A DNA stretch of 29,014 nt from a virus, in the IMG/VR virus record IMGVR_UViG_3300025071_000035, positions 1 to 29,014 of that record; one strand, written 5' to 3'. Shown here one piece after another: positions 589 through 9,168 of the stretch. The notes under the pieces were generated by a model. That model worked only from the letters and a program-made list of their open reading frames with translations, was not told the DNA's origin and ran no database searches. The first letter of the stretch is position 1. Each line of letters starts with the position of its first letter. Made by a program: the position numbers and the translations under genes.

Positions 589-768
589 TTATTGGTTAAT
601 ATTGTTTTTTATTGCTCTTCTTAATGCTTTGTAATATTTAACAGGCGTTTCATATTCCCAAACTCTGTTTAATTTAGTGTTTAATCTGTTGTAATTGTAG
701 TTTCCTTCTCTAGTTTTATTGATATAGAAAAAAGAATTATTATTAATTTTTGTTTCGTGTATTGTCAT
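589..768 (-). CDS. Small basic hypothetical protein, 59 aa
   Basis: A 59-codon frame runs from ATG 768 to TAA 589-591. The product begins MTIHETKINNNSFFYINKTR and ends KALRRAIKNNINQ. It is basic, with many Asn, Lys, Arg and Tyr residues, and no known domain. The start is preceded by the A-rich leader AAAACAAA, like several other genes here. It is the first gene after the repeat-bearing non-coding region, so it should be read from any leftward promoter there. The call rests on an intact frame, correct leader and tight spacing to the next gene. Confidence 0.55.
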   Translation of the reverse strand: MTIHETKINNNSFFYINKTREGNYNYNRLNTKLNRVWEYETPVKYYKALRRAIKNNINQ

Positions 769-797
769 TTGTTTTGTTTTTAGTTAATAATTATAAT

Positions 798-805
798 CAA
801 ATATA
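798..805 (-). promoter_or_regulatory. Possible -7 promoter box for the left-end genes
   Basis: The minus strand reads TATATTTG, an exact match to the Bacteroidota -7 consensus TAnnTTTG, about 30 nt before the ATG at 768. The -33 position has only TTTC at 21-nt spacing instead of TTTG, and such short boxes arise easily in AT-rich DNA, so this is weak. Confidence 0.3.
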
Positions 806-836
806 TAAAACTAATATAAATAAATAGAAAAGTAAA

Positions 837-868
837 TGTTAAAATTTTGTTAAAATTATGTTAAAATT
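837..868. repeat. Three TGTTAAAATT direct repeats, 11-bp phased
   Basis: Exact copies of TGTTAAAATT start at 837, 848 and 859, an 11-bp period close to one helical turn, so all three present the same face of DNA. The TGTTAAA core is shared with the iterons at 1022-1120 and lies in the same orientation. They could be an AT-rich unwinding element or extra protein-binding sites. Confidence 0.6.
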
Positions 869-987
869 TTATACACCTTTAATATTGCGTGTGCGCACGT
901 ATACAAAATATATTTGACACTACAAAAATATTTTATGTTTTTCTACTGGCTTAATTTGTTTTTATAATTGTGTAAGAATTCAGATAT

Positions 988-1008
988 TATTTAGAATAAA
1001 TCTAAATA
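988..1008. repeat. Perfect 8-bp inverted repeat beside the iteron array
   Basis: TATTTAGA (988-995) and TCTAAATA (1001-1008) are exact reverse complements separated by ATAAA. The hairpin lies 13 nt from the first iteron. It lacks a U-tract on either strand, so it is not a standard terminator. It could extrude near an origin or act as an operator. Confidence 0.5.
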
Positions 1009-1021
1009 GCGAAGAGGGGGG

Positions 1022-1120
1022 ATAATGTTAAACGACCCCCATAATGTTAAACAGGGGATAATGTTAAACAAGGCATAATATTAAACAGACCCCTTAATGT
1101 TAAACACCTTAATGTTAAAC
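1022..1120. repeat. Iteron-like array, six copies of (A/T)TAAT(G/A)TTAAAC
   Basis: Copies lie at 1022-1033, 1041-1052, 1058-1069, 1075-1086 (ATAATATTAAAC), 1094-1105 and 1109-1120, all in the same direction. Start-to-start distances are 19, 17, 17, 19 and 15 nt. The spacers are short and alternate G-runs with C-runs: G6 before copy 1, C5 between 1 and 2, G4 between 2 and 3, then C4 between 4 and 5. Individual repeats could therefore sit in hairpin loops closed by G:C stems. The array ends 3 nt from the terL stop. Six conserved copies in a non-coding gap point to binding of a DNA-binding protein, most simply a replication initiator. Confidence 0.75.
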
Positions 1121-1123
1121 AAA

Positions 1124-2338
1124 TTATCGGATAACATATTTTCCAGAATTGTTTCCTTGTATTAAATATTGAAGTGAATATCTAATTGCATCTATGAAGT
1201 GATTGTATTTATCTATTGGCTTCTCTCCTCTTTCATGCCATACATAATTGTTTAGCTCTCTGATAATACCACTAGAGTTTCTCTCTACTATAATCTCATA
1301 GTCTTGCATTAAAGCAATACCAGATAGTATACTACCCTTCTTCTTTATAGTAGGTCTAATGTTTAATCCTGTGTTCTTTAATTCATTTATAAGTCTTGGC
1401 TCTGAATTGTCACATATTATCAAATCTGCTGAACATTCCTGTCTATTCCTAAATGCTATGTCAGAAGTAGATAAACCAGTCTTTCCGTATATTTCTTTAA
1501 CATATACCTTTCTAACATCTTTATCAATAGAAACCTTTACAAGCGTTGTCATATCCATAGAGAAACCAAAATCTTGACCATAACAGGTTAATTCTGTCTG
1601 TGCAAACTCTCCTACTTTCCAATTCCTTATAATTGTTCCTTCAGCTTTCTCCATCCAACCACCTAAGATAACGTGCTCAAACTTATGAGGGTTTCTTCTC
1701 TTCATCTCATATAACTGTGTTAAGAATGAGTCTGATAGGTTCTCCCTATTATCTTCGTATGTAGTATGTATATAAGTAGCATCATCTTTTGCACCATTAA
1801 ATCCTCCTTGTATTGTTTTAAACAAAAAGAATCTTTGATATATCCAATGTTCTTTTGTAGCAGGGTTTAATATTAAAATACATCTGTTCTGTTTATTCTG
1901 TGAACGTATAGAAAAGTCTATCTTGTTAAACACATCTTCTTCCATAAGCTCTTCTGCTTCATCTACAACAAAGGTTGTAACGCCATTTAAGGACTTTAGA
2001 GCTGCTGTTTGGTTACCAGAGGATGTTCGTATCCCTTTAAACATTATAGAGCTTCCTGTCTTAAGATTTATAATCTCATCTTTAGTTATCCTAAAGTCTG
2101 CGTGTACATTCATCAGGTCTATCTTCTCAATGAACTCAGGTATAATAGAGGTGTTAGCTGATGTTAAAGTATATCTAGTAAACAATACTTTGTGTCCTTC
2201 TTCATAAGTTAGGTTAAGTAGAAACAAAGCCACACCAAATGATTTACCTGAACCTCTACCACCAGTTACAATATAGTATCTGCTCTTAGATTGAAACAGA
2301 GGAATGTATTTACTATGTAGATTTATATTACTATTCAT
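1124..2338 (-). CDS. terL: Terminase large subunit (PBSX/Terminase_3 type)
   Basis: This is the DNA-packaging motor: an N-terminal ATPase translocates DNA into the prohead and a C-terminal RNase H-fold nuclease cuts the concatemer. Walker A is GGRGSGKS at residues 26-33. Walker B is TTFVVDEAEE at 121-130, with the catalytic Glu next to the Asp. ILNPA at 156-160 fits the coupling motif. Candidate nuclease aspartates are D256 (GQDFGFSMD), D310 (IICDNSEP) and D383 (HFIDAIRY). The length of 404 aa is typical of the PBSX-like family. The start overlaps the end of the small-subunit gene by 8 nt. The stop lies 3 nt from the iteron array, so packaging recognition there is possible. Confidence 0.95.
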   Translation of the reverse strand: MNSNINLHSKYIPLFQSKSRYYIVTGGRGSGKSFGVALFLLNLTYEEGHKVLFTRYTLTSANTSIIPEFIEKIDLMNVHADFRITKDEIINLKTGSSIMFKGIRTSSGNQTAALKSLNGVTTFVVDEAEELMEEDVFNKIDFSIRSQNKQNRCILILNPATKEHWIYQRFFLFKTIQGGFNGAKDDATYIHTTYEDNRENLSDSFLTQLYEMKRRNPHKFEHVILGGWMEKAEGTIIRNWKVGEFAQTELTCYGQDFGFSMDMTTLVKVSIDKDVRKVYVKEIYGKTGLSTSDIAFRNRQECSADLIICDNSEPRLINELKNTGLNIRPTIKKKGSILSGIALMQDYEIIVERNSSGIIRELNNYVWHERGEKPIDKYNHFIDAIRYSLQYLIQGNNSGKYVIR

Positions 2339-3165: not shown

Positions 3166-3618
3166 TTAATATGTTTTTAGCATTTGTACCATAGCATTTA
3201 TTCTAAGCTTAGCTACATCTATTTGTTGTTCAGGTATTTGTCTTATTATATCTACTAACTCTGCATCATCAGGAGCTTCTGTTGATTTAAGTAAAGCTTC
3301 ATAGTCTTCTTTAAGTCTTATGTATTTCTCCTGTATCTCTTCTATAGGGTCAGGAGATTTAAGTATTTCATACATTGATTTATACTTATATTCATGCTTT
3401 GCTATTAAAGGAAATGTATTCCTTAAGGAGTGTATTACATTAGCGTGACTCATTCCTAAGGTCTTAGATATTTCATGGAAACTAAGCTCTGTGTTTTCTC
3501 TACATAATTTAAAGTAAATTGCCCTACAATATATTAATTCTCTTCTTCTGTTTTTAGATGCTAAGTTTAATCCTGTTCTTTGTTCAATTGCGTTTCTAAT
3601 CTCTTGTGTTGTTTTCAT
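3166..3618 (-). CDS. DnaA domain-IV-like DNA-binding protein
   Basis: 150 aa. Residues about 22-70 resemble the C-terminal DNA-binding domain of DnaA: a basic helix NRRRELIYCRAIYFKLCR, then LSFHEISKTLGMSHANVIHS, where SHANVIHSL aligns with the DnaA signature DHTTVxxA that reads the DnaA box. The AAA+ ATPase and the helicase-loading domain are absent, so this is a stand-alone DNA-binding module with a helical tail (90-150). It overlaps the upstream gene by 23 nt. Known roles for such modules are origin binding or transcriptional control. It lies about 2 kb from the iteron array, a plausible target, although no canonical TTATCCACA box was noticed there. Confidence 0.7.
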   Translation of the reverse strand: MKTTQEIRNAIEQRTGLNLASKNRRRELIYCRAIYFKLCRENTELSFHEISKTLGMSHANVIHSLRNTFPLIAKHEYKYKSMYEILKSPDPIEEIQEKYIRLKEDYEALLKSTEAPDDAELVDIIRQIPEQQIDVAKLRINAMVQMLKTY

Positions 3619-6836: not shown

Positions 6837-7400
6837 TTATATTTTATCGTAATCTTTATTATAAAAATCTTCTACATCTTCCATAAACTTGTCTTTTATT
6901 ATATCTCTATAGTTTCTTATAGAGTTATATAAACTGGACCTGCCTATGCCTAGTTCTTTAACTAGCTTGTCTAATGATAAACCTGTCGTAAAATATGCTA
7001 TACACAAGTTCTTGTTATAGAAATCCCAGCTATTTATTTCATCTAGTATCTTATTATATATCTTAGTAAACGCTTCTTGTTGTTCTAAATCAACGCCAGA
7101 ATATATACTACTAGACTCATACATATTATTTGCTTCATCATTTTCTAGTATCTCAAAGAACTTATATCTATTTTTAGCTCTTTTATAATCAAAATACATT
7201 GACTTTAATGTTAAATATATATAGAACCTGTTTGCTGATTCATCATTATACATTACATTTTTTCCTCCTTCAATAAGTCTATGAACTTTAATATACATTT
7301 CTTGCACTATATCTTCTGCTATGCTAGGATTACATCCTAAGTTAATTACCATCTTCACCCATAGCTTGTGACTCTTGGCTATCTTTTCTAAATCGCTCAT
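6837..7400 (-). CDS. Phage sigma-70-like (ECF type) factor
   Basis: 187 aa. Residues about 1-75 resemble sigma region 2: an amphipathic helix KSHKLWVKMVINLG, then AEDIVQEMYIKVHRLI (28-43) and YIYLTLKSMYFDYKR (60-74), with basic/aromatic residues fitting the -10 strand-separation surface. Residues about 138-170 (TGLSLDKLVKELGIGRSSLYNSIRNYR) form a region-4-like helix-turn-helix that would read the -35 element. It likely redirects host RNA polymerase, perhaps to late genes. The ATG at 7400 gives a 59-nt overlap with rusA. A start at M17 (7352) would cut this to 11 nt but remove part of region 2, so I keep 7400. Confidence 0.75.
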   Translation of the reverse strand: MSDLEKIAKSHKLWVKMVINLGCNPSIAEDIVQEMYIKVHRLIEGGKNVMYNDESANRFYIYLTLKSMYFDYKRAKNRYKFFEILENDEANNMYESSSIYSGVDLEQQEAFTKIYNKILDEINSWDFYNKNLCIAYFTTGLSLDKLVKELGIGRSSLYNSIRNYRDIIKDKFMEDVEDFYNKDYDKI

Positions 7401-8805: not shown

Positions 8806-8825
8806 TGTTTGTTTTTGTTTATAAT

Positions 8826-8853
8826 AAAAAAGGGAGGGCTTTTACACCCTCCC
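8826..8853 (-). terminator. Intrinsic terminator after the SSB-like gene
   Basis: On the minus strand a perfect 7-bp stem GGGAGGG/CCCTCCC (8853-8847 with 8838-8832) closes an 8-nt loop and is followed by six Ts. It starts 6 nt past the SSB-like stop and stands out from the AT-rich background. Since the ATPase follows without a clear promoter, it may only attenuate. Confidence 0.85.
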
Positions 8854-8859
8854 CAAATA

Positions 8860-9168
8860 TTAAAATGGTAAGTCGTCACTCGCTGATACAACTTCTTTTT
8901 GAGCTTTTTTAGGCTCATCATCCCTCACTACAGCAGTACATTTTCCGTCTGTCCATACCACCTTACCATTTCCTATGTAGTTCCTAGTCTTCTTAGCATC
9001 TCTCTCTTCTTTCGTTTGAGAGTCATAAGCTGACACGTTACTTCCATAGTCGTTAGTTTCATCGTTAACACTTACTGTTAAATTATAGTAAGTTCCTTTT
9101 TTACCTTTTACGAATTTCTCCTTAGGTAAGTTTTCTAAGTTTATACTTAAATTGATAATTGCACTCAT
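8860..9168 (-). CDS. ssb: Single-stranded DNA-binding protein (SSB-like)
   Basis: 102 aa. The N-terminal two-thirds is beta-rich (INLSINLENLPKEKFV, TYYNLTVSVND, NGKVVWTDGK), compatible with a small OB fold. The C-terminus is the classic acidic SSB tip, SASDDLPF, which in bacteria docks recombination and replication proteins. It would coat ssDNA made during replication and feed the Erf annealing protein 13 nt upstream. It is shorter than bacterial SSB (about 150-180 aa) and lacks a long Gln/Gly linker. The terminator immediately downstream suggests an Erf-SSB transcript made in excess over later genes. Confidence 0.85.
   Translation of the reverse strand: MSAIINLSINLENLPKEKFVKGKKGTYYNLTVSVNDETNDYGSNVSAYDSQTKEERDAKKTRNYIGNGKVVWTDGKCTAVVRDDEPKKAQKEVVSASDDLPF

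Follow-up and report, generated by a model that had tools for sequence, protein, structure and literature searches.

A multi-site, transcription-oriented intergenic repeat beside terL in uncultured marine phages of Flavobacteria type

Introduction

The stoperators of the cluster A mycobacteriophages L5 and Bxb1 are short asymmetric sites that occur many times per genome, are oriented with transcription and have a group-specific consensus (PMC6550527). The boxA element of gamma-proteobacteria has the sequence GYTCTTTAANA (PMC5725501). Here we describe an intergenic repeat that was compared with these and other systems. The window, which is the whole 29,014-nt stretch analyzed, is a 29-kb virus record and comes from a group of uncultured, Flavobacteria-type, marine phages. 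Its genes lie almost all on the minus strand: tail and head genes come first, followed by those for lysis and replication, then by a TerS-like gene and terL, after which comes an array of repeats (Table 1). Domain annotation identified Erf and a 5′-3′ exonuclease, no tRNA was found, and an Rfam search gave no match.

Results

A pattern scan of the window located WTAATRTTAAAC on the plus strand at 1022-1033, 1041-1052, 1058-1069, 1075-1086, 1094-1105 and 1109-1120, with start-to-start distances of 19, 17, 17, 19 and 15 nt. The preliminary description, which reported six direct 12-bp repeats in noncoding DNA beside terL, was correct in both respects: all six were matched and the array occupies the noncoding gap 3′ of terL. 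Just two stray matches were found elsewhere in the window, the expectation being 0.17 sites for its whole length, and the total of 8 was attained by none of 100 shuffles. The spacers read, in order, G6, GACCCCC, AGGGG, AAGGC, AGACCCC and ACACC, and the alternation of G-runs and C-runs is partial. Hairpins with the repeat in the loop are possible in this array, which folds only slightly better than its shuffles (z of -1.57 for RNA of the minus strand, -0.98 for RNA of the plus strand and -1.12 for DNA of the plus strand). The U-run or T-run of an intrinsic terminator was not found in it.

Table 1. Coordinates of the array and of associated features in the window
Feature	Position	Strand	Remarks
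Array of six class A units	1022..1120	-	Minus is the transcribed strand; each unit reads GTTTAAYATTA(T), then a G-run or C-run
G6 run, flag of the last unit	1016..1021	+	C6 when read on the transcribed strand; may pair with GGGGG in the adjacent spacer
terL, large terminase (Terminase_3)	1124..2338	-	Stop codon 3-4 nt from the array
Single unit TTTAATATTTGGGG fused to intrinsic terminator AGGGTGTAAAAGCCCTCCCTTTTTT	8815..8864	-	Between the SSB-like and AAA-helicase genes
Dyad TATTTAGA..TCTAAATA	988..1008	.	Adjoins the array; simple pattern, beside 31 of 111 arrays
Alternating purine-pyrimidine run TGCGTGTGCGCACGTATACA, 20 nt	886..905	.	Longest GC-containing run of its kind in the window
AT-rich control region, array to first early genes	600..1015	.	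Host-like TAnnTTTG boxes on both strands
DnaA domain-IV-like protein (Bac_DnaA_C)	3166-3618		Near terS/terL; present in most relatives; recognition helix very variable
Small sigma-like protein	6837-7400		In 20 of 20 genomes compared; PHROG sigma factor; Pfam region 2 below cut-off

A TerL search retrieved 80 close relatives from IMG/VR. An array of at least three units lies within 400 nt of the terL stop codon in 53 of the 63 relatives that have at least 300 nt after terL, and further on in 6 more; the 4 without an array comprise two short flanks and two loci with diverged units. Absence of the repeats from related phages, which the preliminary description had named as a point that would count against it, was not what was found: they are present in the relatives checked. 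The unit consists of an AT-rich core of 11-12 bp followed by a flag, which is a G-run (460 units) or a C-run (104 units). Three classes were distinguished, A (GTTTAAYATKAKGGGG, the class of the window), B (CTCTTAAACATAGTA followed by GGGG or CCCC) and C (TCCGTCTTTGTTATGGGGGT), and classes A and C are mixed within some arrays. Arrays have 3-8 units at irregular spacings of 13-33 bp, and some intervals hold whole genes. Alternating spacers are not a conserved arrangement: 50 of 122 distinct arrays have no C-run at all, and G and C flags are adjacent 133 times, with 130.8 expected by chance. One clade, clade 2, keeps a G-C-C-G flag order, but its structural covariation was unfavourable (covariation term +0.8). 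The suggestion that neighbouring spacers pair and present the repeat in a loop therefore fares unevenly, since the alternating layout behind it is not conserved and such hairpins are real at many sites, most clearly at the single-site intrinsic terminators described below.

Comparison of the class A and class B arrays with cultured phages by blastn produced no match, and no array follows terL in the Nonlabens phage P12024L, which has the nearest cultured TerL (51%). At the sensitivity used, the element is absent from cultured-phage records. The lone bacterial match to the tandem pattern was in a Prevotella MAG (L207:1200-1310), where a terminator-like tandem array of GTTTAACATAATGGGCTC follows a gene; it looks like an independent tandem terminator and was discarded. 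A separate element beginning with AAGGTAGGRCGGAGTCTACTCTTTCG is common to class A and class B phages and is located just after the arrays (L020:3720, L058:9456, L057:4659, L043:6567 and L068:8648). It had no Rfam match in the four contigs scanned (L057, L043, L068 and the L020 contig as L157), and its folding was not above that of shuffles.

A genome can have the unit at as many as about seven intergenic places, and the distance from the preceding stop codon to these noncoding sites is usually 4-30 nt. Counted over 20 whole or near-whole genomes, 165 units are on the terL (transcribed) strand vs 7 on the other, when chance would give about 4-5 per strand; the corresponding numbers in the TerL loci are 377 and 6. 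Arrays separate successive operons in the phages L098 and L102: one array lies between terL and an early operon and a second between this operon and another early operon, and L102 has a third array ahead of the tail genes. The sites found in the class B genomes G013 and G021 belong to class B, with more than one place in G021. Orientation of the unit is unchanged beside minus-strand genes, a property that a purely transcript-bound function does not predict. An encoded peptide (MFNMMG or LLNIVG) was considered and rejected because the frames are not kept between copies.

The preliminary description had suggested that the array is an origin or a packaging site. A packaging signal (pac/cos) next to terL would agree with the location of the array in most relatives. 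However, further arrays are found far from terL, including one 11 kb away in the genome G020, contigs run through the array, and the four contigs that have end repeats of 77-114 bp break at different places. Comparison of contigs showed no contig end shared at the array. A packaging function is highly improbable.

The alternative was an iteron origin, in which an initiator encoded by the phage, such as the DnaA domain-IV-like protein, would bind the repeats and open the adjoining AT-rich region. Direct repeats, dyad, purine-pyrimidine run and AT-rich DNA do occur together in one gap, and most relatives encode a DnaA_C-like protein near terL, which in the window is a candidate replication initiator. 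Nonetheless, the repeats are found at several loci per genome instead of being confined to one replicator locus, their irregular spacing includes intervals that hold whole genes, and the recognition helix of the DnaA_C-like protein diverges widely among class A phages while the unit does not change. The GC-skew check proposed for the origin revealed no replichore switch at the array, and what was observed was a local dip of about 3 kb after the array followed by recovery. A maximum of the detrended skew near the array in several genomes was dismissed as this local dip, tied to the minus-strand early genes. An iteron origin is disfavoured, and we consider it quite unlikely; neither half of the earlier suggestion was supported. 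The dyad, AT-rich DNA and purine-pyrimidine run indicate that the neighbouring gap may itself serve as an origin or a control region that the array borders. Equivalents of the purine-pyrimidine run are found 89-221 nt past the array in most near-complete relatives, and the run beyond the array is the longest GC-containing one of the genome in about 11 of 19 array-bearing genomes. In this Z-DNA-prone run the alternation is kept while the sequence varies; the version in L104 has 44 nt and begins with CGCGCGCACGCG.

At several single sites the unit forms part of a plain intrinsic terminator: the stem pairs the G-run (5′ arm) with the C-run (3′ arm), and the core occupies the loop, the position immediately 5′ of the stem, or both. 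TTTAATATTAAGGGGGCTATGTTTAACATTAGCCCCTTTTTT, whose loop or 5′ flank contains the unit, is one such site. A terminator was recognized in 26 of 43 gaps with a unit vs 61 of 269 gaps without one (odds ratio 5.2, p 1.5e-6, an optimistic value because the genomes are related and not independent). The remaining 17 of the 43 unit gaps have no recognizable terminator. The unit is in or just 5′ of the hairpin in only 18 of 87 terminator gaps, and most terminators have no unit.

Phages with two arrays (L106, L124, L126, L139 and others) match the one-array phages on the terL side and then again directly after the second array, which indicates that the inter-array operon is either there as a whole or missing as a whole. 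Identity of L130 to L124 and L139 is 99.5% on the terL side and 100% right after array 2, and this operon is missing in L130; comparison of L062 with L106 showed the same array-to-array pattern. On this pattern, phages with a single array look like the products of array-to-array crossover in two-array phages. Small genes are also lodged between units, in the minus orientation relative to terL, among them MKQTIYY (86 aa), METLFIQ (49 aa) and MVTEILL (53 aa), and the MKQTIYY stop codon abuts the G-run of the next unit in several phages. The MKVYLVFK family is found between units in both orientations. Opposite-strand orphan genes of 49-92 aa between units were seen in L049, L096, L099, L109, L111, L117, L122, L133, L135, L143 and L150. 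The small inter-unit genes had no match in Pfam (7 tested) or PHROG (6 tested) and are candidate host-interaction genes. Their ATG is 6-26 nt from a reversed unit. The reversed unit was rejected as their promoter, since reversed units never precede plus-strand genes above chance and the late sites would be antisense promoters.

The crossover pattern, the small minus-strand genes between units and the two orientations of the MKVYLVFK family are what would be expected if the repeat were a recombination linker or cassette border with no regulatory role, persisting since exchange at it shuffles modules. No phage integrase (PF00589) was detected in 21 genomes, yet Erf and the 5′-3′ exonuclease are present, which also agrees with such linkers. 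However, this explanation does not account for the conserved core plus G-run within terminators, nor for the position after stop codons and the fixed orientation at cassette-free sites. As a full explanation it is possible but rather unlikely.

No binding factor for the unit was identified among the phage proteins checked. Divergence between classes A and B in TerL, Erf, the sigma-like protein and capsid is no greater than among class A clades. A/B divergence was only slight in the TerS-like protein (ratio 0.83) and more marked in a small 90-aa protein encoded next to the DnaA_C gene (0.38). The DnaA_C-like, sigma-like and TerS-like proteins were discarded as readers because none of them tracks the A/B class. 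Since the universal phage proteins do not follow the class of the unit, it is plausible that a host factor, or no factor, reads it.

These results bear on stoperator-like operators, asymmetric DNA sites in the orientation of transcription at which a bound phage protein would block elongation. The logic is that of the cluster A mycobacteriophage sites (PMC6550527), and the genome-wide occurrence of asymmetric units in one orientation, their multi-site recurrence and a consensus that varies from one phage group to another all fit it. On the other hand, no HTH_3 protein (PF01381) and no integrase, the marks sought for a cognate repressor or a temperate phage, were found in the 21 genomes, divergence of the phage proteins checked does not follow unit class, and the units form dense arrays and are inside terminator loops. 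We regard a stoperator-like role as unlikely.

BoxA/nut-like RNA sites bound by host NusB-S10 were a further candidate. Their reader would be encoded by the host, which would account for the lack of a phage protein that tracks the class. The core of class A, TTTAAYA, is the same as the 3′ half of the gamma-proteobacterial boxA (PMC5725501), and class B, with CTCTTAAACA, is nearer, at 9 of 11 positions. However, the essential C4 of boxA is mostly G in class A (55% G, 14% C), class B has C4 but T7 is changed to A, the 16S leaders of Bacteroidota show GTTCTTTGA-like elements and not TTTAACA, and likeness between short AT-rich motifs is cheap. The resemblance is a lead only, and boxA-type function is very doubtful.

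Discussion

We tentatively propose, as a reasonable possibility, that the intergenic repeat, which is oriented with transcription and has several sites per genome, the array being one of them, serves as end-of-unit transcript punctuation and doubles as a recombination joint. On a transcript in the terL direction, the G-run and C-run would form stems that help to end transcription or to set the 3′ end of the RNA, and a factor might read the core, placed either in the loop or immediately 5′ of the stem. The arrays would insulate the terL operon from the early control region beyond. As the same sequence recurs at module borders, it could also offer a homologous joint for the gain or loss of small genes and of entire operons, and exchange would probably proceed through the Erf annealing pathway of the phage. 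Against the punctuation part stand the window array, which has no U-run and folds weakly, and the G-run-only arrays (50 of 122), which cannot form G/C hairpins.

The genes between units are each bordered by copies of one site, as in integron-type cassettes, and the site-specific integrase of such systems was not found in the 21 genomes. We can imagine, with little confidence, an integrase-free, integron-like variable locus beside terL, where oriented units of core plus G-run would be both terminators and borders, and annealing recombination would insert or remove small orphan genes and early operons.

If the repeat is such punctuation, a large set of uncultured Flavobacteria-type phages gains a shared, easily searched sequence for the ends of transcription units and the borders of modules. 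It would aid genome annotation and the finding of the variable early locus, which exchanges small genes without assigned function (possibly for host takeover or counter-defence), and would help to test the origin of phage mosaicism without integrase.

With respect to known systems, the repeat resembles the iteron origins of plasmids and phage lambda in that direct repeats, spaced by roughly two helical turns, adjoin AT-rich DNA, but it is multi-site, one-way, irregularly spaced and interrupted by genes. It has the TTTAANA half of the boxA of rrn and lambda nut; however, the key C is usually G, there is no boxB, and the form is not that of Bacteroidota boxA. Like intrinsic (rho-independent) terminators, many single-unit sites are a G+C stem plus a T-run, whereas the arrays mostly have no T-run and the conserved core in the loop or 5′ flank is outside the definition of a terminator. 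As in the boundary or linker sequences of mosaic phages, a short sequence is shared at module borders where exchange occurs, but here it is a defined repeat unit in arrays, identical at many borders of one genome. Unlike the stoperators of L5 and Bxb1, the units carry G-run flags, are grouped in arrays of 3-8, and are positioned after stop codons and within terminator loops; no repressor or integrase was found. The repeat is real, conserved and multi-site and was placed in none of the families tested; the system closest to it in logic is that of the mycobacteriophage stoperators (PMC6550527).
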